From positions 248,001 to 312,000 of the forward strand of contig WHVD01000065.1 in assembly GCA_015178975.1 (NCBI GenBank): a DNA stretch of 64,000 bases. Reading direction: 5' to 3'. Position numbers and translations under genes: made by a program. The notes under the pieces are model-generated. The model saw nothing but the letters and a program-made list of their open reading frames with translations, did no database searches and had not been told where the DNA came from. This document shows positions 1,610-61,892 of the stretch, in pieces (position 1 is the first letter of the stretch; each line of letters starts with the position of its first letter). The DNA is from Hysterangium stoloniferum. Taxonomy: Eukaryota; Basidiomycota; Agaricomycetes; Hysterangiales; Hysterangiaceae.

Positions 1610-1656
1610 AACACAATCTAGTGAGGGCGCAGCCTATAAGCTGAAGCCAAGTCCTA
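1610..1656 (+). ncRNA. Conserved U5 RNA hairpin box (copy 1)
   Basis: Outer stem TAGGAC...GTCCTA, then GGC/GCC, then CAGC/GCTG closing a CTATAA loop. Six further copies in the window have compensatory changes in the stems (see findings). Its position is in the 5' leader of the element RNA, between the start site and the primer site. A role in priming, packaging or dimerisation is inference. Confidence 0.65.
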
Positions 1657-1709
1657 CTGGATATTCCGCAGGTTTCTCCGGAGACCCGCCCTGTACGTAT
1701 CCTAACAGT

Positions 1710-1720
1710 ATTTTCTGACT
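1710..1720 (+). other. Self-priming primer-binding site
   Basis: ATTTTCTGACT, 2 nt after the LTR end, is perfectly complementary to 1385-1395. No initiator-tRNA 3'-end match (TGGTAGC type) is seen here, which fits Tf1-type self-priming. Confidence 0.7.
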
Positions 1721-1742
1721 TATACCCGCAGATTGTTTCATT

Positions 1743-3022
1743 ATGCCACCAAGAAGGAATACACGTGCACAGGCATCATTACCTGGACCGTCGACTCCTC
1801 ATTCCCCGTTAACTCTGTATACCAGTCAGATGCTTGCAAACCAGTCGGAACCCATGGAAGAAGCCCATATCGAAGAAGTCCTGGAAAACCAGGACGAATC
1901 CGAGCACGAGGATGAATCCGTGGCCCTCAACAAGGGCAAAGGTGTTGAAAATCCTCCGCCTGTTCAACAACCGCACTTGGGGGATCCTACTTCTGAGTTT
2001 TTAGCAGGCACTATAGATAAATTCATGACACACCTGCTTGAAGAACAAAAGAAAAAGGAACAAGAACCTCCACGGTCAAAAGTCAATGCTCTGGAACCCT
2101 TCACAGGTTCCAACCCAAACAAACTCTCTACTTTCCTCATGCAATGTCGCTTCAATTTCCGTGATTGTGCCACTGCATTCTTCATGGACTCCCAAAAAGT
2201 CAACTACGCACTGTCATATTTGTCGGGATCCACGTTGAAATGGTTCGAACCCGCTTTTAGCGGAATTTCCGAGGAAGAGCCACTCTGGCTCGACAATTGG
2301 GAAGCTTTTGTTGAGGAGCTTGAAACCAACTTCAGCCTGTATGACCCGACAGGAGAAGCCGAGAATAGTCTCACAAATCTTCGTATGAAGGACATGCAGT
2401 GCATCAGGGACTACATCGTCCAATTCAATAATCTTGCAGCTCACTGTCAGTGGGGCGATCCCGCTCTCTGCCACCAATTCTATGCCGGTCTGCCGTCCCA
2501 CCTTAAAGACGAAGTCTCGAAAGGAGAAGATGGCAAGCCAAAAACCCTGTCCCGTATGCGCCTCAAAGCTCAAAATGTGGACGCACGCTATTGGGAATGT
2601 TGCATGGAAGTTGCCCGTGAGACCTCCACGGACAAAGTAAACAAGTCCATGGCCAATAAAACCAACAACAACAACTCATCAACCAGCAACCAGAACTCCA
2701 CTCAATCCGACAAGAAGAACGATAAAAAGTCTTCAAACAACAACAACAATAAGGACAATAAGGACAATAACAAGGGTCAACAGTCTGGCAAGCAAGCTGG
2801 AAAACCTGACCTCTCAGGCAAACTCGGACCCGATGGCAAATTGACCACACAGGAAAGACAACGTCATATGGACAACAACCTCTGTCTCTTGTGTGGGAAA
2901 CCCAGTCATTGAGTCCCGGAATGTCCGCTGGCAAAAGCAAACTCTTCTAAGGGTCAAACAGCCAAGGCCTCCACGGAAACCCCGTTGAAGGACAAACCGG
3001 CTTCCGATTCGAAAAAAGAGTA
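1743..3022 (+). pseudogene. gag: Chromovirus Gag (one premature stop)
   Basis: The frame opens at an ATG 35 nt after the LTR. The first ~100 residues are acidic and proline-rich. The capsid-like region (about residues 105-290) has the usual Ty3-type run from a FTGSNPNKL-like start to a LKWFEP block. A long Asn/Lys/Asp/Ser tract follows, then a CCHC zinc knuckle (CLLCGKPSH...PEC). An in-frame TGA at 2910-2912 lies inside the knuckle, one codon after its His, and the frame runs on to TAA at 3022. The stop is one transition from TGG. Gag would form the virus-like particle. Pol lies in another frame 18 nt downstream. Confidence 0.88.
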
Positions 3023-3040
3023 AGCAATTCCGCAGACTCC

Positions 3041-6000
3041 ATGCCGGTTGGGGGTTGCGTTGCCTCTCCGCACATTCAAGAGTTTACTCGCCTCAACGCA
3101 TCCACTCTTTCACATTCTGATTCATTTTTCATTACACTTATGTCTAATATGATCCCGAAATTCATTTTTTCAGCTCTCATAGATTCTGGCTCGACTCATT
3201 GTTTTTTAGATACAAAATTCACACAAAAAAATTCTTTGTCAACTTATTCGATAAATCCCATCGGTCTCCGCCTCTTTGATGGCACAAGTAATTCAGTTGT
3301 TACCCAAGCTTGTGATTTACCCATCAGTTTCCCTTGTGGAACATCTCAATTGGTCACTTTCTATGTGACCCAGTTAGACTCAAGTTGCTCGGTGGTCCTA
3401 GGACATAACTGGCTTACCCACTACAATCTGTTGATTGACTGGATAGCTAACAGTATAACATTCTGGACTCCCGTGGCAGCCGAGGAAACTGCGCCTGTCT
3501 CGGCCTCCATGGCACCCATGGCCTTCCCGGCACCTGCAGTCTCGAGGACTCCTGTGATCCCTACGGCACCCATAGCTTCCCTGGAACCCACAGCACCTCC
3601 GTCCATTTCTCTGACTAATGCTGCAGCTTTTATTAGGGCTTCAAAAATGGATGGTTCCCAGGCATTCACTATCAACTTAAAAATTGATGAAGCAACTGGA
3701 CATTTTTCAACCCCGGTATCTGAATCTGAGCAAGCCACTGACCTAGAAGGCATCCCAGAGAAATATCATGACTTCGTGGATGTTTTTAGCAAGCGGAAAG
3801 CTGACCGGCTTCCGCCTCACAGAGAATATGACTTAAAAATCGATCTTGAAGATGGCACCCAGCCACCCCTAGGACATATTTACCCGCTCTCGTCCACGGA
3901 ACTTTCCACGATCTGTGATTTCCTGGATGAACATTTGTCCATAGGTTTTATCCGACCCTCAAAGTCTCCTTTTGGAGCACCTGTTCTGTTTGTCAGAAAA
4001 AAGGATGGATCCCTTCGACTATGTGTTGATTTTAGAGGACTCAATGCTGTCACCAAAAAGGATAAATATCCACTCCCACTTATATCTGACCTGCTCGATG
4101 CTCCACAGAATCCCCAGATTTACACCAAAATAGATCTCAAGCATGCCTATCATTTGGTCCAGATCGCCATGGGCGATGAATGGAAAACCACTTTTAGAAC
4201 CCGTTATGGGGCCTTCGAGTGGTTGGTGATCCCCTTTGGACTCACCAATGCTCCATCTGTTTTTCAGTGTTTTATCAATGACATTTTCTCCAACATGCTC
4301 GATGTATGCATCATTGTTTACTTGGACGACATTCTTATCTACTCCGAGAATCCCGCAGAACACGACAAACAAGTCCATGAAGTTCTCCAGAGACTCAGAC
4401 AACATGGTTTATTCGCAAATGGTAAAAAATGTACTTTTGACATGGACTCCGTGGAATACCTAGGTTTCATGATGGGACCCGATGGACTCTGCATGGATGA
4501 AACTAAAGTGCAAGTCATCAAAGATTGGCCCGAACCCCGAAAAGTTAAAGATATACAATCCTTCCTCGGCTTTGCCAATTTTTACAGACATTTTATCCAT
4601 GGATATTCTGACATCACAGTACCCCTTACCTGTCTTACGCATAAGGGTACTCCGTGGAATTTTAATGATAAGTGTCAAAAAGCTTTCAATCTTTTAAAAA
4701 ATTCTTTTTCTACAGCTCCTATTCTGTCACATTGGAAACCAGACTTCCCACTCATTGTTGAAATGGATGCCTCCGACTATGCACTTGGAGCCATTCTGTC
4801 TATCCAGGACTCTGATGGAGAAGTCCACCCCGTGGCTTTTCTGTCCCGGACTTTTACCAGAGCAGAGCTCAACTACGATGTTCATGATAAAGAACTTCTG
4901 GCAATCTTTTCAGCTTTCAAAGCGTGGCGACACTATTTGGAAGGTTCAGGAGCTCCTATTGACGTTGTAACAGATCACAAAAACCTGGAATACTTTTCTA
5001 CCACAAAACTTTTGACCCGCTGGCAGGCCCGCTGGTCTGAATATCTATCTGCCTTCAACATGATTATCCGTTTTCGACCCAGCCGTCTCAGCGGCAAACC
5101 CGATGCTTTAACTAGACGATGGGACGTCTATCCTAAAGAGGGGAGCAATGACTATGCAACGGTAAATCTGCACAACCTGAAACCTATTTTCACAAATCAA
5201 CAACTTACCGCATCGGTCCGCACAACTTTCCTCGTCAATCCCATTGTCCGTGGAATTATCATTATGGATATCAAGAAGTTACATCAAGATATTCTATCAG
5301 CAATTCCACTAGACCCGATTACTAAAGCTCACCTTGACAATCCTGTGGACCCCGATCAACTCGGTGGTCTCTTGATCAACATGGTTTCATTAGACTTGAT
5401 GATCAGATCTATGTACCGGACTCCGATGGCCTCCACCTCAGGATCCTTCAATACAAGCATGATCATCCACTCTCAGGACATTTTGGGTACAACAAAACTC
5501 TATCATTAATAAGAAGAGAATATACTTGGCCCGGACTCCGTGGATTCGTCAAGCACTATTGTAAATCTTGCACTACTTGTCCCCACTCAAAATCTCAGCG
5601 ACACAAGCCATATGGCCTTTTGAAACAACTCCCGGTACCGGAACACCCGTGGAATTCTATCTCTATGGATTTCATTGAACACCTACCAAATTCCGAAGGC
5701 TTTTCTGCTATTCTAGTCATTGTTGACAGATTCTCAAAACAAGGTATATTCATCCCTACATATGACACAATTACGTCCATGCAGTTAGTGGAACTTTTCA
5801 TTATCCACGTATTTTCCAAGCACGGAGTTCCATCCCACATGACTTCCAATTGAGGATCAGAGTTCGTGTCTCACTTCTTTAGATCCCTCGGAAAATCCTT
5901 GGACATGACATTACATTTCACGTCCAGACATCACCTGGAAGGCGACGGACAAACCGAACATGTCAACCCGACATTGGAACAATACCTCCGCATATATTGC

Positions 6001-6747
6001 AACTACCAACAGGACAATTGGAAATCCTTGTTACCACTTGCAGAGTTTGCTTACAATAATGCACCCTCGGCCACTACTGGTGTTTCCCCATTCTTTGCAA
6101 ATAAAGGATATAATCCAAATATTACAGTACATCCAGAATGAAATCTCCCCTCTGTTCGTGCTCAAGAGTTCACCACAGACCTCCACAAGCTCCACAAGGA
6201 ACTCCGGACTGCAATATTGTCCGCCCAAGAGCAATACCAATATTCAGCAGACAAACACCGGATCCTGCCACCCAACTTCAAGATTGGCGACCGTGTTTAT
6301 GTCAAAGCTCAATTCTTCCAGACTACCCGTCCATCAAATAAGCTTGCTGAAAAATATTTAGGTCCATTTGAAATTATCGCACAAGTAGGTCCAGTTTCTT
6401 GGACTCTACGGCTTCCGGATAGTATGCGCGCAGTACACCTGGTATTTCATGTTTCTATGCTAGAACCTTGTACTGCTAACACTATCCCAGATCGCATGCA
6501 ATCTCTGCCTCCTCCAGTCATCATTGACAGAGAACCTGAGTTTGAAATCTCACAGATTTTAGATTCAAAAATTGACAAGCGTCGATGCACTTGTAAACTG
6601 CTTTACTTGGTCAAGTGGGTGGGTTATGAGGGCACCAATGAAGAAACCTCATGGATTTTGGCCACGGAACTCGGTAATGCCACGGAAATCATTACTGACT
6701 TTCATACAGCTTACCCACTCAAACCTGGACCATTATCGTCTCTCTGA
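3041..6747 (+). pseudogene. pol: Chromovirus Pol: protease, RT, RNase H, integrase, chromodomain
   Basis: Domains in order: aspartic protease with DSG at residues 48-50; reverse transcriptase with YLDD near 4319; RNase H with EMDASDYALG near 4760; integrase HHCC finger near 5455-5580; integrase core; a GPF-like module; and a C-terminal chromodomain (KWVGYEGTNEETSW near 6615-6660), which defines chromoviruses. Lesions: a 1-bp deletion near 5381 shifts the frame just before the HHCC finger; TGA stops at about 5851 and 6139, both one C-to-T step from Arg CGA; and the integrase motif expected to read TSD-R-GSEF reads TSN-stop-GSEF, so the second catalytic Asp is also lost. The element cannot be autonomous. 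Confidence 0.92.
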
Positions 6748-6948
6748 CTGCACTCCACGGACCCCATGTTACGTTTGGACTCATTTTCATTATTCCCTGT
6801 CACCCTATGTCTCTCTTTGCTTTTACAGGTTCTGACATGTCTTGTCAAGTCCTTAAGCGGACTCTCCGCAGACTTTGGCTTTGACTTTATTTCTTATGTT
6901 TTTTCATGCTTTACTTCTATGTTCAAAATTATTATTAAGTTTTATTTT
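6748..6948. other. Post-pol untranslated segment
   Basis: T-rich segment following the Pol stop. No 3' LTR-A is found; the junction between the LTR-A element body and the LTR-B-type 3' end must lie in or near here but leaves no visible mark. Confidence 0.4.
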
Positions 6949-7254
6949 CTATTCTTCATCTACATTGATGGGGCTATCTTTTTTCCCCGCCTCTTTTTCC
7001 ACCTCAGCTTTTCCTGCCTCATTCATCTCCTCAGGTAGCTCTGCTATCTCCGTGGGCACCTCCTCCTCATCTGAACCGGCCTCCTCGGAACTCCCAGCCT
7101 CTGGCTTCTCATACACAAAGCTGGCATACTCCATCAGGAATTTGAAGTGGTCCCCACAGATTGCATGGAGATCGTTCACCATGATGACGCTAACTTTGTT
7201 GCTCTTCCGGAGCAACTCGTTTTGGGCTTCAATGCCCTCGGTGATCCGTCCCAA
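6949..7254 (-). CDS. Antisense ORF between pol and LTR-B
   Basis: 101-codon ORF opposite to pol, open further upstream to about 7356 without an ATG. The N-terminal half is amphipathic with a heptad-like run (LGRITEGIEAQNELLRK). The C-terminal half is very acidic (SSEEAGSDEEEVP). It ends near the pol 3' end. No function is recognised. It may be an accessory antisense gene of the LTR-B family or a chance ORF; codon content looks protein-like rather than random. Confidence 0.45.
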   Translation of the reverse strand: MGRITEGIEAQNELLRKSNKVSVIMVNDLHAICGDHFKFLMEYASFVYEKPEAGSSEEAGSDEEEVPTEIAELPEEMNEAGKAEVEKEAGKKDSPINVDEE

Positions 7255-7319
7255 GGCTTCCTCCAGACTGGAGTATCCATCTGACCCACCATTCTCCCAT
7301 GAACCGGACCCCGCGGCCT

Positions 7320-7354
7320 GCTCGTGAACGAGCGAGCACCTCGCCTTGAGGTGC
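7320..7354. repeat. Two perfect hairpins just before LTR-B
   Basis: GCTCGT-GA-ACGAGC (7320-7333) and GCACCTC-GCCTT-GAGGTGC (7336-7354) stand back to back, two bases before the LTR TG. This is where a polypurine tract is expected. Being perfect palindromes they could act on either strand. Confidence 0.7.
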
Positions 7355-7356
7355 GC

Positions 7357-8300
7357 TGTTATGTATTTTTAGGTTTTTCCAATTTTTAACCAATCTCCCC
7401 CTAAACAAATTGATAAAAACACGTTTAAATGTACTTATATTGCGACGAAATTATTGTACAATAGTCTCATGAGATTAAGCTGATTTTTACAATTTATTTC
7501 ATATTTTTATCATTTATTTTGGGAGAGTTATCAAATTTCTACTGTTTATTCTTTTTTATCTAAATATCTTCTAAGTCGGCCATCTGGCGCTTATTGCGCA
7601 ACGCGCGGGAAAATTTGTCACAATATGTGACATTCGTTACAACAGGTGACATTCGTCACAACAAGTGACATTCGTCACAACAGGTGACATTCGTCACAAC
7701 AGGTGACATTCGTCACAACAGGTGACATTCGTCACAACAAGTGACTGGCATCACAACAAGTGACCGGCGTCACAACAAGTGACTGTCGTCACAAAATACA
7801 AATGCGACTCAGCTGTCACAAACAGCTGAATAATAATAACGTTACACATATATTACACGCGCGGGAAAATTATGTAATCAGCGCACGCACGAAATCAGCA
7901 ACTTTGCGACGCGCGAGAATATTACATCAGCATATATGCTACAATGGAAAGTAGTAGAAACTCCTGGAATATTCCAGCAGATTCCAGGTAAAATAGCTAA
8001 AAATAGGTAAAACAAGTAGCTAGAACATTCTCCCATGTCTCAGATTTTACTGTATATAAGGAGCTCTGCTCCACCACTGAAATATAACTTATTTTAACCC
8101 ATTTACTACACCACATCAGTGTGCCACTGCATCAGCAGTTATATTCCACCCCTAGTTGGGCTGTTGGATAAATATATACAAACACTTAGTCACCTCTAGT
8201 TGAGCTGCTGACCTAAGCTAACTCAGGATCCCTTTGCGACCTCTAGTTGAGCTTCTGGTAATAATCCTAATTGGAGGATATCTGAAAACTATTAATTATA
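7357..8300 (+). repeat. LTR-B copy 1
   Basis: Starts TGTTATGTATTTTTAGG and is alignable over several hundred bp with the copy starting at 10240: shared GAAATTTCTAC / AATTTCTAC blocks, an ACGCGCGGGAA block, TATATAAGGAG, GAAATATAAC and the CACCTC...TTGAG repeats. TATA box near 8053. The right end is not defined and the end given is approximate. It may be the 3' LTR of the mosaic element to its left. Confidence 0.6.
7616..7796. repeat. Tandem array of a palindromic ~22-bp unit
   Basis: About eight copies of GTCACAACAGGTGACATTC with small variations. Each unit contains GTCAC...GTGAC as an inverted repeat. It lies in the U3 part of LTR-B copy 1; the second LTR-B has only a degraded version (about 10493-10580). 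It could be a repeated protein-binding site. Confidence 0.85.
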
Positions 8301-9180: not shown

Positions 9181-9850
9181 GACTCTCTGTGTCTCATGTA
9201 CCCATCACTGCGACTGGACTCCCAGAACCCCTCTAACAGAGCATAGAACCCTGCTCCCCTTATGGTCAAACAGTCTGTCATATGTCTCATGTACCAGTCA
9301 TTGGACTCCACTGGACTCCGAACTCCACCCTATATACACCCAACATTCTGTATCTCACGGACCAGTCACCAGACCCCAACTGGACTCCCCAAAACCCCTC
9401 TAACAGAGCCTCGTTCCCATTATGGTCTAATGACCTGTCATGATTTGTTCACTGCTCCCGTTCCATTCCATCCCTCACTCCCAGTTTAGTATTTACTTGT
9501 TCCATTTTATGTTTAATAGTTCTGCCCCTCATTAATACCGGATTTGGTATTATTACATTTCACAGTCTATATAACTCTCCTATATTCATGTACTTAGAAT
9601 CCAGTTTGAATCTCAAACAAGTTACACCCCTGATCCAGTCTCTGCTCCTCTCATCTGTCTGCATGCTTGATTCCTGGAACTCCCAAAGGAACTCCAGAAT
9701 CTACATCTCTTTGTATGTGTTCCCTCAGCTCGAAATTTGGACACCCAAATGAGTGTACAAGGGTGCAGCCTATAAGCTGAAGCCAAGTCCATCTCAGCTG
9801 TACCATACATACTTCTGGTAATTATTCTGATACCACACTCCCTTGTACTA
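9181..9850 (+). repeat. Decayed LTR related to LTR-A
   Basis: Recognised by order and spacing of LTR-A landmarks: a GACCTGTCA...CATTCC block near 9428, GGATTTGGTA, a CTATATAA TATA box near 9567, AATCCAGT, then the conserved U5 box at 9735-9792. It contains an internal duplication of about 100 bp (9188-9285 resembles 9345-9445). Ends are uncertain and no paired LTR is assigned. Confidence 0.6.
9735..9792 (+). ncRNA. Conserved U5 RNA hairpin box (copy 2)
   Basis: Outer stem TGGAC/GTCCA, middle GGT/GCC with a G-U pair, inner CAGC/GCTG, loop CTATAA. The outer closing pair differs from copy 1 but still pairs. Confidence 0.6.
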
Positions 9851-10119: not shown

Positions 10120-10180
10120 CTGAAGCTAGGACCCAATGATCATACAAAAGCATAGCACATAAGATGAAGCCAATTTCTAT
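10120..10180 (+). ncRNA. Degraded U5 hairpin box (copy 3)
   Basis: AGCACATAAGATGAAGCCAA preserves the box order but both stems are broken. It marks another LTR relic immediately before LTR-B copy 2. Confidence 0.5.
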
Positions 10181-10239
10181 CTGCCTTGGAACTTCTACAG
10201 GTTTTCCCCATGCCTTAGTTCACTCCTGCCCAGTAAGGC

Positions 10240-11890: not shown

Positions 11891-12060
11891 AATCCTATTC
11901 TTGGCCCATCCTGAAGTCACAAATTCATTTGAAATTAGGACAGCTGCATAGTTTGTAATGGTGCAGCATATAAACTGAAGCCAAGTCCCACCCATTCACA
12001 GTCTTTGCTCCTTGGTTTAGTACTTGACTTAGGGACTTAAGGTCTCTATAGTATATTTTA
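11891..12060 (+). repeat. LTR relic with U5 hairpin box (copy 4)
   Basis: The box at about 11932-11990 keeps GGAC/GTCC and CAG/CTG pairing, loop ATATAA, with one C-A mismatch in the inner stem. Only the U5 side is recognisable. Confidence 0.5.
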
Positions 12061-12944: not shown

Positions 12945-15900
12945 ATGGCATCGAACCAACCAGCACTATTCATGTTGCAACCTGAGGATTGCCTTGATGG
13001 ACACAATTGGTTCATGTGGCATGACACTATCTGGTCTGCAGCGGGTGCACGAGGTGTCTGAGGGTATATAGATGGGACCATAAAGAAACCTTCCCAACTT
13101 GCCCCCAATACTACACCTGTACCAATGACTTACTGGGGATCACACAATCCTTCACCTGAGGAATGGGAACAGCGCAACACATATGCAAAGGCAATGATTG
13201 ACCTGAACATCAAAAATCCTATCGGCAATGGCATTCAACCGTCAGATACTGCAAGTGAGGCTTGGTCTGCCCTGAAAGCAATACACAGCGCAACCTCTGA
13301 TATAGGATTGCTTAATGCCGATAACGATTTGCATGCAATCAAACATATTGATGGCGCGGACATCGTATCCCATTTCACACGACTGCACAAAGGATGGGCA
13401 AAAGTCAATGTGCAAGGGGGAAAAATGAACAACTCTACCTTCCGCACAATCGTCATTGTGTCGATGCCTAAGGAGTGGGATCTAGTAATTGGAACTCTTT
13501 TTTCACTGAAGACCTCCAAAGAAGTAATATCAAACCTCACCTTATATGACAAAACAATCGCACGAAACAGGAAACCCACACCCCAAACCTCACAAGCTCT
13601 TGCAACCACTAAATCCAATCGGTCTAGTGATGTCTGCTCCAACCCCAACTGTAAACATGTAGGACACACAATCGAGAAGTGTTTCAAAGTCGGAGGAGGG
13701 ATGGAAGGTCAGTTTCCTGATTGGTGGAGAAAGAAGGGGACCGGTACCGGTGGAAGTCAAGCCGCGCAGCAGCAAAAACCATCGACCAACGCCATACCTA
13801 CCAAATCAACAGTTAACGTGGCGGTCGCGCCCTCTATTCCCTTCACGCCCAGATCTGGAGAATTCTGCACTCTTATGATGCAGGTAGATCCAACAGTATC
13901 CACTATTGGCACTATTGTTACCTATGCTGACTCCACAGTGAGTGATCATTTTTTTATTGATATAAATGATTTTCAAACTTACAAGAATTATAATGGGAAG
14001 AATGGAACTATGGCTAACAACAGTAGCACCTTCTCAATCTGTGGAAAGGGGACAGTTAGCAAGCACTGCGTATATGATGGATGCATTATCAATCTTACAT
14101 TTCGGGACACACTTCATTGACCGACCTTGTCTCACAATCTCATGTCCATCAGGAAACTTGATAACAGCAGATGTTATGTGATTTTCGGGGGTGGCGGCGT
14201 TACCTTTATCAACTCAGATGGTCACCCATTTATGTATGGGAGGGGAGAAGGGACAATGTACAAGATCGACATCTTTCCACCAGCTGGTCCCCTCCCAGAT
14301 AACATGCAATTATCCCTGGACATGGCAATGCACCCAACAACCATAGTCAAGACAACTACACACGCTTTTGCCGCCAAATCCCACGACCAACCAACCGACA
14401 TAGATACCTGGCATTGACACCTTGGTCATGCTAGATATGATACTGTACAACAAATGGCCAAGCATAATGTCATCCGTGGTATGCAGGTAACCACCATGAC
14501 GCCCCAACTGAGGACATGTGAAGGATGTATAATGGGGAAGCACACACGCCACCCATTCTACATCAATGATGAGCATGAAACAGCAATCAGGGAACGGACC
14601 TATGTTGACTTGTGGGGACCATCCCGAGTCCAGTCCATTGGCGGGAGAAGTTATATGATGCCATGTGTCGATGGGTACAGCAGTCACCCGGAAGTTTTCT
14701 TCTTGTCCAGTAAGGAAGCCAAAGGAACCCTAGCCACATTGAAGCACTATACAGCGCTCACTGAACGTCAGACAGGGATGAAGGTGCACATGATACATAC
14801 CGATGAAGGCACTGAATTCTACAATTCCTTGTGGACCACATATCTCAACGAACAAGGGATCATACATGAGACCACCACTGCGTACTCATCTTCCTCCAAC
14901 GGTGTTGTTGAGCGGTGTCATCGCACCATTATCGAGCGAGTGTGCGTTTGCCTGTACAAGAATAAGTTACCCACTGCGCTGTGGTGTGAAATTGCAGCGG
15001 GAATTATATATGTGATGGATTTTATCCCTACTACCAGAAACTCCAATTTGACTCCTTTTGAGTTGTGGCATGGGAAGAAACCTGATATTTCTCACCTGTG
15101 TCCCCTTGGTTGTGTAGCTTACGCTAAGATTCCCGTCAAAACAGGAGGTGGGCTCAGTAAACTGGACCCAAGATCCATCAAAGGGGTGCATATCGGATAT
15201 TTCGGATGTGACACTTACAGAATTTATGATCCAGATGGTGTCGTATCTTTCACTCGCGCGACATCATATTCAAGGAAGGTCGCAGTTGCAAGACACTAAC
15301 TGAGATATCGGGTGAGGAGGAAACACAGAATCTTGACCACGTTACACTTGCCACACCGGTTAACGAGACCCCAGATGAACTGAGCAGAGGTTTGGCACCA
15401 GTATAAGACCACGCTCCTTCAATCGCCCCAACCAATATCTCATCCCCACCCGTCACTGAACCGACCAGCATGGAATCTGCACCATGTCGCTCCACGCATG
15501 TATCTGTCCCAACACAGGCACTTAAGGACTCTCTCAACTCAGAAATGGACATACAGCAAGCCCAGCTGGCAGGGGAGGCATGGGCTGATGACAGAGTACA
15601 TAGTGTGTTCCATACTGACCCCATGACAGTGCCAGACCCAACAAACATGTGGCTCCCCAATACATACAGTGAGGCGATGACGCGTCCCAACATATGGGCA
15701 GGCCCTATCCACAAAGAATTAGCGATCATGAGGAAACACGGGGTGTGGACAGTTATGGATTGTCCTGCAAATACTAGACTGGTAAAAACATGTTGGACCT
15801 TTGCACACAAATACAGTGGAAACGGCGAACTTATTGCCCGCAAGGCAAGACTCGTAGCTAAAGGATTTACACACATTCCCGGCATCAATTTTTTCGAAAC

Positions 15901-35290: not shown

Positions 35291-35660
35291 TTCTGGAAGT
35301 CGCTGTGTTTGGAGAATTTCTTCAACACGGGCCTAGATCGAACCCAAGTGTTGTTGAACTAGTCGCACAAAGAATACGTTTGCTATAGGCTGTCTGCTAT
35401 AGGCAGTTCATATAGATGACTGAGCTCTAGTAGGTATGCAAGGGGTTTTACGGCTCCCTGACTAGTAACCGAGTAACTGTGGTTAGAACACCTGTTTTGG
35501 GAGATGTATACTATAGGGGTGTTATGATCTAGTCGAGTTTGAAAACCTATCTAGGGACCCAATAATAATGTTGCACACTGCAGAAGTTCTAACCCGCTGA
35601 TGTAAGGGAAAAGACGCCGAAACCAAACGACGGCAAATAGAATCTTCGTTGTTGACGATA

Positions 35661-46185: not shown

Positions 46186-46190
46186 ATTTT

Positions 46191-46533
46191 TATAACAAAT
46201 AGAATATCTCAGTCGTTACAAGATATGTAGAACAACTAGTATTAAATGGAATACCTATAACAAATAGAATATCTGTTAATTAAGTAAGCAAACTATAGCA
46301 GTAAACATATGAGTCGTGTCGTACCTCAGTCGTTACAAGATATGTAGAACGACTGAGGTTAGAGTACAAATCCCCAACTATTTATGCGTAGATAGCCAAC
46401 TGGAACAATAGAACAAAAGAGCCAAAAGGGGTCACTGCCAAGAAAACAGACTATGGAATACAATAGGGGTTGAGGACCCTATGACTTCAAGTGTATCGGG
46501 ATCCGGAGCATGTGTTAGTCTTGATCCATAACA
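46191..46533 (-). repeat. Copia-2 3' LTR
   Basis: 343 bp. It contains a perfect 12-bp inverted repeat, ACCTCAGTCGTT at 46323-46334 with its complement at 46348-46359, and TATAACAAATAGAATATCT twice. In the 5' LTR one arm has a single CpG-to-TpG change. Confidence 0.93.
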
Positions 46534-49500
46534 CTCTCCCTGACTAAACGTGCTCCTTAGGATCGCAAAGGCAAAGTGCGATGCATTGTCGTATATGTGC
46601 GATGTGTGTAAGTGGTTTAGTGAATATATCTGCGAGGTTATCGATAGATGCGAGTTGTCGTACTTCAACATCACCACTAGCGACACGTTCCCTAATATAA
46701 TGATATCTGATATCAATGTGCTTAACTCGTGAGTTATGCTTGGCATTCTTGGTTAATGACACAGCTCCAGCATTATCGTTCCACAGGATCGCTAGTCGTG
46801 GCTGAGAGTATCCGACTTCATCCATTGCTGAGTACATCCACAATATCTGTTTCATGGCTTTAGTAAGTGCCATGTATTCTGCTTCTGTTGTTGAGAGTGC
46901 TACAGTAGGCTGATATTGGGATCCCCAGGCAGTTGGACCTCCCACTTGTATAAAAACATGTCCAGAACATGAGTGGCGATTATCGAGGTCACCACTGTAG
47001 TCTGCATCCACATACCCCACTGGCTGTAGGTCCTTGTACTCCCCTCCATAAGTGATCTTATAGTCGAGTGTACCCTTGATGTACCAAAGTACATGTGTGA
47101 GTGCATTCCAGTGGGTACGGCCCGGGTTGGATGAAAATTTGCTTAATGTGGATACTGCATATGATAAGTCAGGTCATGTAGCAATTTGAGCATACATAAT
47201 TGAGCCTAATAATTCGCGATAGGGTTTGTCTGCCATGAAGGCACGATCCTCTGGTATAATGGGTGCCATACTATTAGTAAGGGTGATTCCAGTAGGGAGT
47301 GGTATTCCTTTAGGGTTACAATTCGCCATTCCAAACCTTTCAAGTACACACTCCAGGTAAGCTCGCTGGGAAATGCTTATTGTCCCGGCTGTCCTATCTC
47401 TGTCAATCCGTATTCCTAAGACCAAGTTTGCATCACCTAAATCTTTCATCTCGTAAGTCATACCCAATTCCTCTTTCGCTCGTTCAGCTTCCTCCTTGGA
47501 CGAGGAAATACCTGTTGTGTCGTTGGTATATGTACTAGTAATAGTGATATCGCCATTTGCATGTCTGGATCGGACTGCAGGGTCGGCCTTGGACCTGTAA
47601 TATCCCAGTTCGCCCATTTCTTTGTTTAATGCCTCTGCCCAGTTATACGCGCCATCCATAGTCCCATAAAGTGTCTTGTTCAGTTTCCTGATCTTTCCAT
47701 CTACTTTTGCTCCATCAGGTAGTTCAATATATATAATTGCTTGTGGGTGAGAATTCAAGTAGGCGGCAACATAATCGATTTGCCAAGCTTCCATATCCAT
47801 TGCTGCTGCGATTGCAAGGTTCATATGTAGTGATTCATACCGAACAACTGATGCATATGTCTCGAAGAAATCGACTCCAGGGATTTGTGTGAATCCTTTT
47901 GCAACTAGACGGGCTTTTCGTGCGACAAGATTTCCCTCGGCATCGTATTTGTTGGCAAATGTCCAACGAGTTTGTACCAGGCATACATTTGCAGGGGGCT
48001 CAATAACCTCCCACACCGCTTGTTCCTTCATAATGGCTAATTCTTTAGTAATAGGTGCAGTCCAGATGTCAGGCCATGTCATCGCCTCTGCATATGAGTT
48101 AGGGAGCCAGTAATTTAGTGGGTCAGGTAGTTTAGCCACGGTGGTCTCCCTTGCAGTGTATAGGGCCTTTATAATGTTAGTCTCTGTGGGATACCTTGCA
48201 TCCAATGCCCAATCCTTTCCAGCTTGTTTGGCTTCCTCAGCTGTACGCTCAAATTCTTGTGAGTTGAGTATTGCCTGTGTTGGGGTATGGGTACGTGTGG
48301 AGGTACATATCACAGGCTCTGTTGTAGTCACTGGAGTTATTGATTCGGGTGTCTCAGATGTAGTTGGTATGGCTAATGCATCTTGAGGTATATTATTGTT
48401 GAATTCCTCTCCCTCGCTTGATGGGACTGTGGAAGGAATTGTCTTGTTGCCCTGGCCCTCCTCAAAGATTACATCTCGCGACCGGAAGATCTTCCGTGTC
48501 AAGGGGTCGTATAGTCAATAAGTGTTGCACCCAAAATAGCCAATCAGTATACATTTTACAGATCTTGGCTCCAGCTTGCTAAGACCACCACCTGCCTCCA
48601 CTGGTATTTTCACATAAGCTGTACACCCAAAAGGGCGCAGATGTGAAACGTCAGGCTTCATGCTGTTCCATAGTTCGAAGGGTGTTATGGATGGGTTCCT
48701 TATGTTGGGTACTAGATTGCTGGTGTAAATAATCGTTGATGTGATTTCACACCACATTGATGGTGGTAATCCAGCTTCATGCAATAATATTCGTACATGT
48801 TCGATAATTGTACATTGTGTACACTTGACAACGCCATTTGACTGAGAGGAATATGCAGTGGTCGTTTCATGTATGATCCCTTGATTTGTGAAAAAATCTC
48901 GCCATAGTGTGTTGCAGAATTCAGTGCCTTCATCCATTCGTACACGTTGAACATGCTTTCCTGTTTGCCATTCTGCCAGGACAATGTATTGTTTGAGGGC
49001 TTGTAGCGTTGTGTCGGCCTGTTTATCAGCAAGAAAATATCCTTCAGTATACCCCGACGAACCATCTACAAGAGGCATCATATAGGATTTTCCACCAGTA
49101 GATCTTATGCGTGATGGTCCCCATAAGTCGACATATATATGCTCGCCAATTGTCATTTCTCGTCAGTCATTGGTATGAAAGGGGCGGTGTGTATGTTTAC
49201 CCATAATGCAGTCCTCGCATGCCCCAGGTTTTGGCGTGACTGAAGTGATATCCAGCCCATTGATGGTTTTGTCATGGTGCATTTGCTCAATTGTTTGGTA
49301 GCTGATGTGGCAGAAATGTCGATTCCACGTATCGATATCAGTTGGTTTGACATGTGAACGAGTGGCATAAACAGTTACTGTGTTTTTCACAGTGAGGGCC
49401 TTTTCCATATTTGGGGGTCCCGGGTTGGCCATAGCGGGATTGAGTAATGGATGTATATCCACCTCATACATAGTTCCTACACTTCTTCCACGCATGAATG

Positions 49501-50518
49501 GTTTGTCATTGTTGTCAATGAAAGTGACACCACTCCCACCAAAAACTGCATAACACCCAGCTTTATCCATGCAGCTGATGGATATTAAGTTGTGGGACAA
49601 ACTAGGGGTGTGTAGGGCATTTTGGAAAGAGATATCGATTATCTTACCGTTGAAGTTGATTTGTTTTTGAACGGTACCTATGCCATGTATACGGAATGTT
49701 CCCCCAATTGTAGCTGTCGTCCCAATCTTTCCATTAAAGGGTGTATATGTCGAGAAGTCGTTGATGTTGGTGAAACAATGATCACTGGCCGCTGAATCAA
49801 CGTAAGTGACAGTATGGGGCATTGATGGCTTTGTGAGTTGCGTCATGAAGGCATAAAAGTTATTCCCGGGGGTACCATTTACTTTTTCAGTGGGGACAAG
49901 AGCAATATTGGCTGTGGTTGTCTGGGATCCGGGCTGTGATATGGGTGGATTAATGGCACTTCCTTTCTTCCTCCACCAGTTGGGATATTGTCCCTCCATT
50001 CCCCCTCCAGGCTTAAAGCATTTGTCAATTGTGTGGCCTATTCTTCAGCAGACTGGATTTGAACAGACGAGTGAGCTACGTGTCGCTCTCTGCTGTGTCG
50101 TAGCCAGAGCTTGGGTAGTTTGGGGCATTGGTCTCCTATGGTGGGCAAGCACCGCATCATGTATAGTGAGCCTTGCAATGACATCAGCTGACGTTTTCTG
50201 CTCGTAAAGTGTACTAATATAAATTGACCATTCGACAGGCATTGAGCCAAGAATAATGGTGTGAAAATCAGAATCATTGATCTTGCTGCCCTGTCCTGTC
50301 GCTTTCTCCCAGGCTTCCTGGAGGATGGCAAAGTGAGCAGTCAAATCTGCCCCATCAATATGTCTGATCGAACGAAGGGCATTCTCGGCGTTCAAAAGGC
50401 CTATATCAGAAACTGCATCATATATTGTAGTAAGTGCACTCCATGCCTCTGTTGCAGTTTGCGTTGATTTAATCCCGAAACCTAACAGGTTCTTGATATT
50501 GAGCGTGATGATGCTCTT

Positions 50519-51338
50519 TGTTACGACCGGACAAATCCCGCCGGACTCCGGGCACTAACTCGTACGCCCCCATGCGCTACAAGCACCAATCGTCTGTTTA
50601 TAGGATTTCCCGCCCGGACTCCGTTACGTCAAGACTTGTTACGTTCGACCTCATTAAGACACATATCAGTCACTGGACTTCCCCCGGACTCCGTCTCTGT
50701 CTATGTCCGTCTTCGTCCCACGCATCAGTCACCGGAACCCGCTTAGAATCCCGTCACCGCTCTAATCGAGCCCCGTTCCCGTTTTAGTCAAATGACCTGT
50801 CACGATTTAGGACTCCGCTCCCGCTCCGTTTCCCGTTATGGGTTATGCTTTGTCACGATTCGGACTCCGCTCCGTTCCGTCCCGTTCCTAACACCAATTT
50901 GGTGTTTACTATTCCCGTTTTAGGTTTTGCTCGTTTCGTCTCATTATTACTGGATTCGGTATGTCATGCATTCCACGGTCTATATAAACTGGCAGATGTT
51001 GTACATACAATCCAGTCAGAAAATTAGCTTAGATTCCCCCCAGTAATCTAATACATTTTCCTCTCTAAAACCCTACTCTTATCAGACCGCTCGCACTAGT
51101 CGGAGCCCACGGGCTCCGGCGCATCTATCTCTCTCGACTATCTCGATTCACGACTCTCGACTCACGACCTATGACTCACGACCCACGAACCCCCGCCCGG
51201 ACTCCCCGGGATTCCCGTCCGCCTGTCTGAAATTGGACAACACGATCTAGCAAGGGCACAGCCTATAAGCTGAAGCCAAGTCCTACCGGATATTCCGCGG
51301 GTTTCTCCAGAAACCTGCCCTGTGTGTGTATCCTAACA
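50519..51338 (+). repeat. Solo LTR-A inserted in Copia-2 gag
   Basis: 820 bp, TG...CA, flanked by TSD CTCTT (50514-50518, 51339-51343). CpG-rich compared with the LTR-A at 872, so more recent. TATA box near 50981, probable start AGTCAGAAAAT at 51014-51024, U5 hairpin box at about 51232-51284. Formed by recombination between LTRs of a full element after insertion. Confidence 0.95.
51232..51284 (+). ncRNA. Conserved U5 RNA hairpin box (copy 5)
   Basis: GGAC/GTCC outer stem, GGC/GCC, CAGC/GCTG, loop CTATAA. It is the best-preserved member with LTR ends and TSD, so it fixes the box about 55 nt before the LTR end. Confidence 0.65.
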
Positions 51339-51639
51339 CTCTTTGCGTAGGCATCACGCTGTGCCCATTCATCTGGAGTTGGTGTTGTAGATCCCCAGTA
51401 GCTTGTTGCTATCGGTGCCTGCGTGTTTGGTGAGATTACTGGCTTTGCGATACTCCCGCTGAGGTAGCCACACACTCCCCTAGCATTGGCTGCTGATAAT
51501 ACAGTTTCCTTCCAGGTGTACCATTTGCTCCCATCAAAACACTCATCAGTAAGGAGTTGGAATAATGCTGGTTGTGTGGACATGTTTAGAGGTCAGAGAT
51601 TAATGCGATTGCAAGTCGGTAGTCTGGTCGGAATTCAGT

Positions 51640-51800
51640 TTGGTTTCGAGTCAGTGTCTTTTGGTTTCGGGTCAGTGTCTTTTGGTTTCGGGTCAGTGTC
51701 TTTTGGTTTCGGGTCAGTGTCTTTTGGTTTCGGGTCAGTGTCTTTTGGTTTCGGGTCAGTGTCTTTCGGTTTCGGGTCAGTGTCTTTCGGTTTCGGTTTA
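51640..51800. repeat. 20-bp minisatellite in the Copia-2 leader
   Basis: About eight head-to-tail copies of GGTTTCGGGTCAGTGTCTTT with one or two base changes, between the primer site and the Gag start. The Copia-1 leader (12880-12935) has a short, irregular run of related CTGACC units, so the array expanded here. Confidence 0.9.
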
Positions 51801-51812
51801 TTGGCTTGGAAC

Positions 51813-51825
51813 GGGGCCCATAACC
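51813..51825 (-). other. Copia-2 primer-binding site
   Basis: On the minus strand reads GGTTATGGGCCCC directly after the 5' LTR; identical core to Copia-1 and the gag-only element. Confidence 0.8.
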
Positions 51826-52168
51826 TATAACAAATAGAATATCTCAGTCATTACAAGATATGTAGAACAACTAGTATTAAATGGAATACCTATAACAAAT
51901 AGAATATCTGTTAATTAAGTAAGCAAACTATAGCAGTAAACATATGAGTCGTGTCGTACCTCAGTCGTTACAAGATATGTAGAATGACTGAGGTTAGAGT
52001 ACAAATCCCCAACTATTCATGCATAGATAGCCAACTGGAACAATAGAACAAAAGAGCCAAAAGGGGTCACTGCCAAGAAAACAGACTATGGAATACAATA
52101 GGGGTTGAGGACCCTATGACTTCAAGTGTATCGGGATCCGGAGCATGTGTTAGTCTTGATCCGTAACA
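51826..52168 (-). repeat. Copia-2 5' LTR
   Basis: 343 bp, 98.5% identical to the 3' LTR by direct comparison. Confidence 0.93.
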
Positions 52169-52173
52169 ATTTT

Positions 52174-52488: not shown

Positions 52489-52531
52489 ATGTCATTGCTT
52501 TAAAAAGTCACATTAATACTATCTCATTATC

Positions 52532-57906: not shown

Positions 57907-59237
57907 GATGATCGTGTCCTCAGGTCAGGATGCACTCATTTATAGAAAATATTCTCTTTGCCTTGACCTGCTCCTTATCCCATTCCATTACTGCTCAATA
58001 GTCAATGTTCCCTACACAAAGCGATCGCCGGATTAGGCCCGTGACCAGTCAAAGTGCACGCGTCGATCAAGTTTTCACAGTGGGTTGATGGAGCCACAGT
58101 GGAACTGACATAACGATTATCAAATAGGGTCACTGAGTTGGTTGTCAGGCAGAGTAATATACAACCCCCTAACTTTTGGTTTTCAATTCAGAATATCTTT
58201 GACTAATGGCACTTCCTCATCAAAGTGCCTTCCACTCACGCTCTTTGAAAAAAGTCCATTATCGATCTCTGCCACCGATCTATTCCAAAAATAGTCAAGA
58301 TCTGCTGAGATTGTCATCTTTGGATTTATACACAGCCTTCTCACGCCGAAATTTAACAATCCAAACAAATCAGCGGATCAAAGAGGTATTTCTTTATTCT
58401 ACTCCTGGTCTTCGATCTTCCGGTTGAAGGCTGTTCGGTAGACTCTTTGACATTAAATGGGATAGAAATCGGATCAGATCACTAACCGACATGTCCCGGA
58501 GAGATTTAGAGGGTGAATCACATGTGAGTGGTCACCGACGGGACGCTTTCAAACCCATATACATATACGCAACCCAATAACTCGAAGAACAATGCCATTG
58601 GCTTGTGCATGAATCACAGATTTTAGTATTGTATGTTACATTACATCCAACGATAAGTGTCTTGTTATGAAGTACCAGAGTGGGGGTTGCACTGTATGAA
58701 GTTCATCTCTTGAGTGGGGGAGGATGCTCCAGCCCGTGGTATCAGAAGCAGGATAATTCTAATAATCAATCCAATAATGACTAGAGCATTAAATCACCCT
58801 GGTAACGATGTACGGCAATTCTTGAAGGGTCCTTCTGTACCGATTAGACTGGGATAAGCCACCTGTCGTGGCACATCAATACTTTTTGGGTCATGTGGTG
58901 CTTCCTATCCAGTAGCTTTCCCACGGTCTAAAAAAAGAGTAGAAAGTCACTTAGACAGAAAGGGAGTGACAATAAAAACTTAGCACAAAGTTTAAACAAT
59001 GAACCCATCTTGGGTGTCACGCATTACATACCCCAGTCCTCTGTCTAACACTCAGTAAAATTGCTTCAGTATATGCTATGCTGCCAATTGTGTACAGCCG
59101 CGGTCACCACTGGCACAGCATAATACTAAGCATACTTAGATTGATGCCAACATACAAACAATTCATAGCTTCAAACTTGAGCTACAGTACATACATGAGA
59201 ATTTTTATTTTATTTTATGATTTGAATACTGTACATG
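57907..59237. other. Upstream region of the zinc-finger gene and spacer
   Basis: No gene supported. A short TGGTATCAGAAGC near 58738 resembles a retroelement primer site but has no LTR beside it. Confidence 0.4.
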
Positions 59238-59422
59238 TGTAAGCCTGGTGAAGCTTACCACAATGGACCTTTCATATTTAGTATCCGCTTCCTTAGATAA
59301 TTAGGATAAATGTGTGTAGTAGTTTTTTCATTATCATTTTTACCTATTGTCACTATCGTGTACTGCCATCTCTGTTCTTAGACAAATATACTTGAGTCCT
59401 ATCAATGTTGGACTGAGACTCA
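59238..59422 (+). repeat. 185-bp direct repeat, left copy (LTR-like)
   Basis: TGTAAGCCTGGTGAAGC...GACTGAGACTCA. About 93% identical to the copy at 62238-62422, with many of the differences being C/T or G/A. TG...CA ends suggest an LTR. No TSD could be matched across the pair. Confidence 0.7.
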
Positions 59423-59518
59423 GTGAGGCTGCAATTGACAGCAGCCTTACACTTTTTTTTTGATACTGACTTTCCTTATTTGCTACCAGCTCATTGCCTT
59501 CCTGCTTCACACTGGATC

Positions 59519-60242
59519 TGTTACAACCATGTCACAACCTGATGGTCCCCGAGGTTATTGCCACCTATCAATGTTTCAGGTTATCAATCAAGTCATCGCA
59601 TCGGTCGCCCGACACTGATGTATGCTTTCACGGTGATCAAACCCCATTTACACCCTGTCAAAATATACTTGTACTATCTGGTTATACTCTGATACATCCC
59701 TTTTTATTATGACGATCCATTCCACTCTATGTTTCACACATGCCTATATATACTTGTAACCCTCAGACTATTTCCTTTTCTCGTAATCCCACTCTTGGTT
59801 AATCATGGCCTCCAAACTTATCATAACCTTCCCGTTCCTAGTCAAGTTTATTTGTCAATAATGTTTCTGCTCTTCCCTTAGTATTTTCTAGATGCCAATA
59901 ACTTGTATATGAACCCACTGTAGTTGTAGTTACTAGGCAATCAGAATATTGACTCAGAACACCCACTTACATCTCATTTGACTTTATACTAAGTATCCCA
60001 CTCCCCACCTTTGCGTGCACTCACCCACTCTCAGTCCCTGACCCCTTGGCCCGACACTTGACTTATCCTTCAGTCCCAATTGGTAACTCACCGTGAGGTA
60101 CTTGTTAGGACTAGTCTTCACCCATCTGAAATTTAAGGACACCCGATGGATAATTGCGAGGGCGCAGCACATAAGCTGAAGCCAAGTCCTTCCGATCGGT
60201 CCCCATCGGCCTGCCGACAGTAGTCAGTTTTCAGTTCTTAAC
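59519..60242 (+). repeat. LTR-C, 5' LTR-like of a Gypsy-type gag-only element
   Basis: Starts TGTTACAACC and ends CTTAACA, like LTR-A; TATA-like CTATATATAC near 59745; U5 hairpin box at 60133-60190 about 55 nt from its end, the same spacing as in LTR-A. Upstream sequence is unlike LTR-A. Confidence 0.6.
60133..60190 (+). ncRNA. Conserved U5 RNA hairpin box (copy 6)
   Basis: AAGGAC/GTCCTT outer stem (six pairs, a double change relative to copy 1), GGC/GCC, CAGC/GCTG, loop ACATAA. Confidence 0.65.
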
Positions 60243-60358
60243 AGGATCCATCAACTGTTCACTTCACAAGGAACACCACCACTCAATTCGAGTTCCCAAT
60301 TCTTGACCCTTATACAGAACCATGTCACCGACATCATGATCAATGGACATCCACTGTC

Positions 60359-61363
60359 TTGGACTCAGATTCGGACTTGTCAGGCCCGGAGCCCTTCAAC
60401 TCATCCACATTCTCACAGCCCTCCCATTGCCAAATCCCTCATCTTCCACTCATCTCACAACTCTCACCTCAGCACATTCATCATCCAACTTCTCCATCAG
60501 TGTCAAAAATGTCAAGTAAAATTGTTTTGCCTTTTGCTGGCCCCCTGACAGCCAACGGCTTGAAAGTCTGGCTTGGATCCTGTGAAGATGGGTTCAAAAA
60601 TTATGAAGACACACATGACAAGAAGCTTATGCCCAAGACTCACATCCACCTTACTGGTGCCACTCTCACTGAACCTCAGATGGCAGAATGGTGGGCATTG
60701 GGGAAGGTGAGTTTTTAGCATTGCCTTCCTGAGAGTTGTTCGTCAAGAAGGTAAAAGATTGTTTCATGCCAGTCAATTGGAAAATGGATGCGTTGGAACA
60801 GTTCTATTCCTGTTCTCAAGGCAAGTGTGATTTTCACACATTTGCAATGGACCTCACCCAATGTCTTGGCACCCTTCCTTCTGCAACAATATCTACAGCC
60901 ATTTACAAACACCATATTCTCTTTTACTCTCACCCCCTCCTATACCTTTGTATGCATGCACTCCAGGCCTTTGACATCAACAATTCATCTCAGATGCCTG
61001 ACGAACTGATTGCCCTTATGGGATCACAATGGGACAGCCTTGTTGCTGACAATGTGGCTTGCTCAGGCCATTCTTCAGCTCACATCAATCATACTAGCTC
61101 CACTGGCATTCCACTTCTCATGTCATTGACTGGAAATGCCACCAGCCCCACCAGTCTCATCACTCCTCTGAAATTCCTTCCAATCACAGAGGAGGAGAAG
61201 GCTGCACTTACAGCCGTTCCAGGGTGTTGGAATTGTTGTGGCAAACCAACAGACCCAGGTTGGGTCCCTCATCAATGTCACACCTGCCCATGCAACCCCA
61301 CCATTGGCACTTGTCCTGGCAAGGATTTTAGCCCATTAACCGTTATGAGCACCTCCCCTACAT
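60359..61363 (+). pseudogene. gag: Gypsy-type Gag of a gag-only element
   Basis: Acidic start (MDSDSDLSGPEP), capsid-like core (GLKVWLGSCEDGFKNYEDTH, then VKDCFMPVNWKMDALEQFY), then a Cys-rich tail (CWNCCGKPTDPGWVP...C) that looks like an altered zinc knuckle. A stop and frame change near 60716-60740 break it. Directly after it comes an LTR-like sequence; no pol is present. The frame stays open to 61470 only by entering that LTR. Confidence 0.7.
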
Positions 61364-61892
61364 GTTACGACCCATTCCTGGATGTTTCAATATCCGACTC
61401 CCGATCTCTGACTACGGAACATCATAGTTACCGTATCTTCCGCATTCTTCCCTTGTTCCGCATTTGGTAATTTGTCCATTGACAAGTATTCACTCGTTTG
61501 TTTATTATATTCCCATTTCGGAATATTGTCTCCCTGATGTCTTATTGTATTTCTGTTTTAAGAATACTTCTGTTTCCATCTTATTATGGTCTCAGTTTGT
61601 AGTACAATAACGAGAAGACTTATATTAGTTTCCATGAATTTGTACTTTACCTTAGATCTGATATCAACTTAGTTTCTTATTCCTTTTTCTGTCTTTCTGT
61701 ACGCTTGATATTCGGAACTCTTCGGAACTCTGAATATCCGTATCTTCCACTATAAGTCTCACTTCTGAAATTAAGGACTTTGAGTGTTTATGTAGAGGCG
61801 CAGCACATAAGCTGAAGCTGATGTCCTGACCCTATCTGATAGTTCCCGACTTCCTGGTGACTTTCCAATAGTTCCAGAATAAGTTTCCGACA
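61363..61892 (+). repeat. LTR-like sequence with U5 box (3' side of the gag-only element)
   Basis: Starts TGTTACGACCC and ends TTTCCGACA, with the U5 box near 61773-61828. The U5 side is similar to LTR-C; the U3 side is not clearly alignable, so it may not be the true partner of the 5' LTR. Confidence 0.5.
61773..61828 (+). ncRNA. Conserved U5 RNA hairpin box (copy 7)
   Basis: AGGAC/GTCCT outer stem, GGC/GCT with a G-U pair, CAGC/GCTG, loop ACATAA. Confidence 0.6.

Follow-up and report, generated by a model that had tools for sequence, protein, structure and literature searches.

What does a short box that recurs seven times in 64,000 nucleotides of the Hysterangium stoloniferum genome (contig WHVD01000065.1, positions 248,001 to 312,000; hereafter the window) do for the elements that carry it? 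An initial annotation had described the box as one RNA hairpin common to the U5 regions of seven diverged long terminal repeats (LTRs), with compensatory changes in its stems, and had named self-priming, packaging and dimerisation as candidate functions. Self-priming is known in detail from the retrotransposon Tf1, and the understanding of how its leader is recognised has so far drawn on few elements. The analysis described here indicates that the box is very probably the U5 part of such a leader in Tf1-like Ty3/gypsy chromoviruses, complete with a pseudoknot clamp.

Self-primer and primer-binding site

The arrangement can be read from the chromovirus copy near the start of the window, all of whose features lie on the + strand. 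Its 5′ LTR (872..1707; family A; 836 nucleotides (nt), TGTTACGAC...CCTAACA) was delimited by its match to 50518-51344 and by its termini; a target duplication was looked for at this copy and none was found. The primer-binding site (PBS), ATTTTCTGACT (1710..1720), begins 2 nt (GT) past the LTR end, and its exact reverse complement, AGTCAGAAAAT (1385..1395), lies upstream in the same LTR, followed by the motif YRRCT. A putative TATA box (TATATAAA, 1352..1359), read from the sequence, starts 33 nt before this 11-mer, which would be both the self-primer (nt 1–11) and the 5′ end of the element RNA. The PBS can be explained by this 11-nt self-match without any tRNA.

The same geometry recurs elsewhere. 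LTRs, primers and boxes were sampled from the window and from loci L001–L058 of the same genome, which together hold 121 distinct boxes; loci L029–L058 were picked by a pattern that hairpins with the usual inner stem do not match, so family D is over-represented among them. In this sample, 16 box-bearing LTRs are followed by an interior that starts GTAT. Twelve of them have an exact 11-nt self-primer (within 700 nt in 11, at 1,213 nt in L011) and two more have one with a single mismatch, in each case matching a PBS at the fixed position +3. The earlier suggestion that the box belongs to a Tf1-like self-priming leader is borne out by this match and by the linker complementarity described below.

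A scan of 362,041 bases (window plus loci, overlapping loci counted) for CA-GT-11-mer with an exact complement 100–700 nt upstream returned 12 places. Eleven carry a box before the LTR end, and eleven carry YRRCT after the primer. Eight control tetramers gave 61 places in total, with a box in one and YRRCT in one; some of these places are script artefacts near locus ends, and several lie in facing inverted LTR copies. Reversed and complement-only controls of the scan gave three places and none. The hairpin ends 59–134 nt before the LTR end, varying by family, and not at the approximately 55 nt first given.

Five primer sequences were found (AGTCAGAAAAT, AATCAGAATAT, AGATCTGATAT, AGTTCTAATAT and AGTTCAAAAAT), each of which pairs at 11/11 positions with its own PBS and at 5–9/11 with those of other families. 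YRRCT occupies RNA nt 12–16 after every self-primer in all five families, and RNA nt 14–16 could pair with the AGT at the border of LTR end and PBS. A TATA-like word, counted by eye, starts 30–38 nt before each of the five self-primers, a spacing that would put the RNA 5′ end at the 11-mer. A recognisable primer (at most one mismatch, plus YRRCT) is located within 500 nt upstream in 72 of 117 boxes, compared with three of 117 downstream.

A second duplex between the linker and the post-PBS sequence

The spacer of about 20 nt recorded in the initial annotation proves to be a linker complementary to the post-PBS sequence. A side-by-side comparison of the 16 leaders shows complementarity between the 20 nt that precede the hairpin and the 22 nt that follow the PBS, and the sequences involved differ by family. 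In the window copy, the linker (1606..1625), whose first four bases are common with the outer arm of the box, would form the U5 strand of this duplex (duplex 2): ACAATCT (1613-1619) can pair with AGATTGT (1730-1736), and GTGAG (1621-1625) is set against CCCGC with one mismatch. The post-PBS strand, CCCGC-AGATTGT (1725..1736), is directly upstream of gag and ends 6 nt before its ATG at 1743. RNAduplex scores the pairing at −10.5 (z −2.76), a value equalled by 2 of 309 other leader segments.

Each family has its own version of these complementary strands: ACAATCT-A-GCGAG with CTCGC-AGATTGT in A (L024), ACGGA..TGCGAG with CTCGCA..TCCGT in B (L018), TGAGCG..TGTAGA with TCTGCG..CGCTCA in C (L012), and TAACAGTTT with GAACTGTTA in D2 (L046). 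The RNAduplex z is −2 or lower in 14 of the 16 elements, at most two other leader segments rival the pairing in 12, and in 11 the duplex runs right up to the hairpin. Since the complementarity was first spotted by eye on these 16 leaders and then tested on the same 16 elements, the fairest figure is a permutation across families: with eight families and one row each, the own-family sum of −104.1 was matched by 13 of 40,320 permutations.

L011 (1-1377 / 6134-7078) carries family B′ LTRs with short tandem repeats between self-primer and box. With its primer so far from the LTR end, both the primer match and duplex 2 (−16.9) are still intact, and the spacing therefore seems flexible.

Structure and variation of the hairpin

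The three-part stem of the initial annotation, including the inner CAGC/GCTG stem and its 6-nt loop, was predicted unprompted by RNAalifold from 17 representatives, as a 6-base-pair (bp) outer stem followed by GGC/GCC, CAGC/GCTG and the loop. The structure has 13 pairs, five of them with changes on both sides. In the window copy (box 1600-1658), the conserved hairpin GGC-G-CAGC-CTATAA-GCTG-AA-GCC spans 1626..1648, as identified from the sequence, RNAalifold and the hairpin model R1 described below, and the outer arms TAGGAC (1604..1609) and GTCCTA (1651..1656) are predicted to pair. The 17-representative alignment was used because an earlier 78-box alignment misplaced the outer arm of family A; for that set, 12 of the 121 boxes were without a 5′ anchor, near-identical boxes were dropped, one wrong anchor was excluded and window box 1600-1658 was added.

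Across the 17 rows, 94.1% of cells are paired, against 15–41% when slid, and 22 cells carry double changes, against 7.7 in shuffles. For 119 distinct rows of 150 aligned, in an alignment fitted to the structure, 91.3% of cells are paired and 145 carry double changes, against 51.9. In the tree-aware test described below, the two top-scoring column pairs of all tested are pairs of the model, but many D-branch columns correlate nearly as well. When typical rows of seven families are compared, 39 of 42 outer-arm positions pair, which 48 of 5,040 permutations reach; the commoner D form gives 37 pairs (72/5,040), the window E form 38 (144/5,040), and both together 36 (248/5,040).

The outer-stem variants reported to keep pairing are real, and family D adds TGGAGC/GCTCCA to forms such as AAGGAC/GTCCTT of family B. 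Pairing is not kept throughout, however: of 31 D-type boxes, 11 have CTGG, four have neither form, and the other 16 have CCAG and thereby lose one or two outer-stem pairs. The four D rows in the 17-row set carry the CTG(G/A)AGC form. By contrast, the GGC and GGT variants of the middle stem, which had been read as compensatory, reflect CpG decay (GGCG to GGTG or GGCA): the CpG pair shows 58 U-G cells versus one C-A cell, matching the expectation for CpG on the 5′ side only. Outside the CpG pair, a wobble asymmetry as a sign of RNA selection was considered and rejected, with 33 G-U versus 66 A-C cells.

Changed copies were also counted genome-wide for single pairs. At inner-stem pair 3, the compensated form CAAC/GTTG occurs in 76 of the 100 matches listed, out of 565 genome places, and these copies look like one family; a further class, in which the G is kept opposite a changed partner, numbers 116 places. 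None of the 19 copies changed at pair 2 is compensated. At the closing pair there are 155 changed copies, with one compensated among 100 matches listed, and at pair 1 there are 137, with none compensated among the 24 of 137 read. In the middle stem, 136 copies are changed at the second pair.

Free-energy folding of ten leaders gave primer:PBS pairing a probability of 0.89–0.96, aided by the cutting of the leaders at those ends. The inner hairpin reached at least 0.95 in six of the ten and the middle stem at least 0.69 in three. A candidate second hairpin in the stretch of U5 that separates the box from the LTR end was rejected: its z was −1.9 to −3.5 in four of six family A elements and only −1.8 to +0.5 in five elements of other families.

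The box in the window and in the genome

All seven window boxes were read directly on the + strand, close to the positions first noted, and all fit one model. R1, with 66 positions, was built from 17 representatives drawn from five families (B, C, D, E and H, but not A, F or G) and recovers the seven sites at E values of 2.5e-17 to 0.003. The boxes at 9732, 11931, 60128 and 61767 are rows of its own building set, so their scores follow by construction; those at 1600, 10122 and 51229 are not part of that set. Six sites fit the pattern GGCGCAGCCTATAAGCTGAAGCC with at most three substitutions. The site at 10120, which fits R1 only at E 0.003, is the weakest and is decayed, with four substitutions even against a laxer pattern.

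The search of further sequence with a covariance-type model, as had been proposed, was run on loci of the same genome: R1 gave 151 matches at E ≤ 0.1 across window and loci, the seven window sites among them. In the whole genome (111 Mb, 554 contigs), the exact 19-nt degenerate core GCAGCMYATAAGCTGAAGC has 3,339 matches on the + and 3,296 on the − strand, 6,635 in total, compared with none on either strand for the reversed core. Rfam gave no match at the gathering score over the whole window. A search of viral contigs for the box found no match, and two prokaryote contigs matched, which we took as chance.

In the window and loci sampled, the boxes sit in LTRs and not mainly outside them. The LTR-end word TAACA follows 40–140 nt downstream of 95 of the 121 boxes, against 9–27 for control words, and 27 of the 121 lie within TGTTA...TAACA ends flanked by a perfect 5-bp target duplication, where 0.5 would be expected from shifted ends. 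The earlier count of seven LTRs holds for four of the window sites. One is the 5′ LTR already described, and three are solo LTRs on the + strand with perfect target duplications: family A at 50519..51338 (CTCTT; self-primer AGTCAGAAAAT at 51014-51024, box 51229-51287; inside a copia element), family B at 59519..60243 (GGATC; box 60128-60193) and family C at 61363..61904 (CTACA; box 61767-61830). For the remaining three boxes, also on the + strand, both LTR ends were not established; these are the family E box at 9732..9794 (5′ arm TTGGAC, loop CTATAA; R1 E 6.7e-14, a building row), the decayed family G box at 10122..10181, and the family H box at 11931..11992 (R1 E 8.8e-11, a building row).

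Element class and neighbouring sequences

The coding region of the window element (1743..6747, + strand) consists of several separate open reading frames (ORFs), in which Pfam identifies gag (1743-2912), protease, reverse transcriptase (RT) and RNase H (3041-5509), and a Tf2-1-type SH3 domain with a chromodomain (6217-6747). Families A and B, represented by the window copy, L018, L009 and L024, carry gypsy gag, RT/RNase H, SH3_Tf2-1 and a chromodomain. In family C (L012), RT, RNase H and integrase were identified in the three ORFs scanned. The traits of the Tf1/sushi group found here are a PBS complementary to the predicted 5′ end of the element's own RNA, a second duplex, and, in A and B, a gypsy gag-pol with chromodomain. 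In L018 (608-8377), the family B copy is flanked by GTAGT at either end and its two LTRs are 99.86% alike; some of the insertions are thus recent.

A location of the box in copia LTRs was also considered and rejected. Of the two LTRs that belong to the copia element at 46191-52168, one was scanned and had no box match, this LTR is followed by a different sequence from that after box-bearing LTRs, and the box at 11932 lies outside the copia ORFs at 13125-16066. The element at 46191-52168 (− strand), which holds the solo family A LTR, has 343-bp LTR stretches that are 98.5% identical, and its 5′ LTR is followed by GGTTATGGGCCCC, which we take to be a half-tRNA-iMet-like PBS.

Several repeats were recorded in passing. 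Direct repeats of 93% identity, 3,000 bp apart (59237-59426 / 62237-62426), bracket the solo LTRs of families B and C and also an ORF of 244 amino acids (60736-61470) that has no Pfam match. A direct repeat of about 950 bp at 87% identity (34364-35296 / 36720-37670), with ORFs on the − strand, is possibly a tandem gene duplication. Tandem repeats comprise a 19-bp unit of type GTGACATTCGTCACAACA at 7575-7813, a 21-bp unit, TTTGGTTTCGGGTCAGTGTCT, at 51639-51806 just past the solo family A LTR, and a long array of units of about 126 bp in L010 (1458-5662).

Discussion

From these observations we infer a start of the RNA at the 11-mer, the formation of two duplexes and a function for the hairpin, as follows. 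The element RNA would start at the self-primer, downstream of the TATA-like word. Its nt 1–11 would fold back onto the PBS, 2 nt past the LTR (duplex 1), and about 20 nt immediately upstream of the hairpin would pair with about 20 nt immediately downstream of the PBS (duplex 2). Since duplex 2 crosses both the outer GGAC/GTCC stem and duplex 1, the leader would form a pseudoknot in which primer and PBS are clamped to each other. Directly adjoining duplex 2 would be the hairpin (GGC-CAGC, 6-nt loop, GCTG-AA-GCC), whose fixed sequence probably serves as a landmark, either keeping the junction open or being recognised by the RT/RNase H or Gag of the element. RNase H would then cut after nt 11, as in Tf1, and the primer would be extended through GT into U5.

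This model resembles systems described in fission yeasts, for which we rely on the available portions of the papers cited here. In Tf1 RNA, 11 bases form the primer and the cut falls between nt 11 and 12 (PMC7175516). Tf1 also needs a three-duplex ‘pretzel’, in which the primer:PBS duplex is joined by two others, both linking PBS-adjacent sequence with LTR sequence downstream of the primer (PMC10085805). Tf1 and Tf2 of Schizosaccharomyces pombe thus share with the elements here an 11-nt RNA 5′ primer complementary to the PBS (PMC7175516), an additional leader duplex between PBS-adjacent and LTR sequence downstream of the primer (PMC10085805) and, as Tf1/sushi chromoviruses, the gag, Tf2-1-type SH3 and chromodomain. 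Unlike Tf1 and Tf2 as described in those portions, the elements here have the U5 strand of duplex 2 inside a stem, where it abuts a sequence-conserved hairpin common to the families. A PBS complementary to the RNA 5′ end is also found in Tj1 of S. japonicus and in Tosmo1-3 and Tcry1 of other fission yeasts, ascomycete elements whose leaders are able to form the pretzel (PMC4600332, PMC10085805), and which are likened here by description.

Among chromoviruses, again compared by description, self-priming has been proposed for the fungal Tcn1 of Cryptococcus neoformans (PMC7175516) and for most plant Tcn1 elements (PMC6317226), with a spikemoss Tcn1 element reported to give no evidence of it (PMC2864245); unlike the elements here, Tcn1 comes without mention of a conserved U5 hairpin in the available portions of these descriptions. 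The corresponding portions of the self-priming literature (PMC4600332, PMC3601003, PMC7175516, PMC2864245, PMC10085805, PMC6317226) do not describe the hairpin, and Lin and Levin 1997/1998 could hold a description of it.

Several points weigh against the self-priming clamp. Two of the 16 LTRs (L014 and L025) have no self-primer that could be found nearby, and the 12 exact complements of the scan are not above the 4–11 of each control tetramer, only the box and YRRCT distinguishing them. L025 no longer has duplex 2, L023 has only a weak one (z −1.47), and in L014 and D1 it faces 24 and 12 equally good leader segments. A third duplex such as that described for Tf1 was not found consistently: the nine leaders compared shared no partner place for a pairing 5′ of the PBS at the LTR end, and TTAAG(GAC)/(GTC)CTTAA is present in B and C, not in A or D. 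A chromodomain was not seen in the three family C ORFs scanned.

The covariation of the hairpin weighs in the same direction. Pairs with double changes number 5 against 4.1 in shuffles (17 rows) and 6 against 6.1 (119 rows), and in both sets the shuffles contain more of the further pair types. A self-written tree-aware test (FastTree, Fitch-based null, 200 simulations, 117 of the 119 rows) gave no significant pair, with a lowest E of 2.4. The compensatory covariation first claimed is thus upheld for paired and double-change cells, which exceed slid or shuffled alignments, but not for the number of double-change pairs, and significance per pair, as R-scape would assess it, has so far not emerged. 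The family-level result for the outer stem depends on the D and E rows chosen (48–248/5,040), that stem had a probability of at most 0.09 in all ten folded leaders, and within-family changes are consistent with neutral decay, showing no wobble preference.

Could the hairpin serve something other than priming? It may be mainly a packaging or dimerisation signal, or a landing site for Gag or RT, that adjoins the clamp since leaders are compact; we regard this as a real though distinctly less probable explanation. CAGC-NYATAA-GCTG-AA-GCC is conserved beyond the needs of pairing while primer, PBS and linker change between families, and such a fixed sequence suggests a protein or RNA ligand. However, the linker next to the hairpin is complementary to the post-PBS sequence, which ties the module to priming. 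A U5 hairpin near the PBS is also a feature of retroviruses, in the form of the U5-IR stem-loop, and Lin and Levin in 1998 reportedly proposed a Tf1 counterpart of it; retroviruses prime with tRNA, unlike what is proposed for the elements here.

A further and rather unlikely proposal is a switch, in which the loop and 3′ arm of the hairpin, UAAGCUGA, would either close the inner stem or pair with RNA nt 11–18, where RNase H is expected to cut. All eight pairs, wobbles included, can form in family A (6/6 elements, three sequence variants) and D (2/2), and seven of these eight elements have no equally good place in the leader, D1 having one other. Yet only 7/8 pairs form in C (one element) and 6/8 in B (two elements, where two further sites pair equally well); the families are not independent, given that the R sequence is conserved as well; and by our own estimate about one leader in ten should contain such an 8-nt match, wobbles allowed, somewhere along its length. 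The switch is therefore a lead rather than a result. Its fuller form, in which the linker clamps the post-PBS sequence while loop and 3′ arm alternate and RNase H frees the primer only in the right state or particle, is equally doubtful.

The box could instead act at the DNA level, as a core promoter (the loop holding TATAA), a polyadenylation signal or a protein-binding palindrome, an explanation that we consider very improbable. The loop CTATAA does resemble a TATA box, and individual copies decay without wobble bias. Nevertheless, each of the five self-primers has its separate TATA-like word upstream, the loop is ACATAA in 68 of the 121 boxes of the family D-enriched sample (CTATAA in only 42, ATATAA in six), and the complementarity of the linker to post-PBS sequence outside the LTR has no evident use in DNA; on the first two of these grounds, a loop that serves as TATA box or poly(A) signal is disfavoured. 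Least probable of all is simple descent from one ancestral LTR with the box as a slow-decaying, functionless remnant, which would suit the many dead solo LTRs and the lack of significant per-pair covariation once the tree is allowed for, but which is hard to reconcile with a box that stayed while primer, PBS and linker came to differ by family, the linker changing together with the post-PBS sequence as family-specific complementary pairs.

One genome with 6,635 exact cores, in which primer, PBS, linker and post-PBS sequence differ together across five primer families and the hairpin remains much the same, makes the leader fold a question that comparison can test. The U5 hairpin would offer a sequence handle for finding self-priming elements, and its conservation marks it as a likely recognition point.

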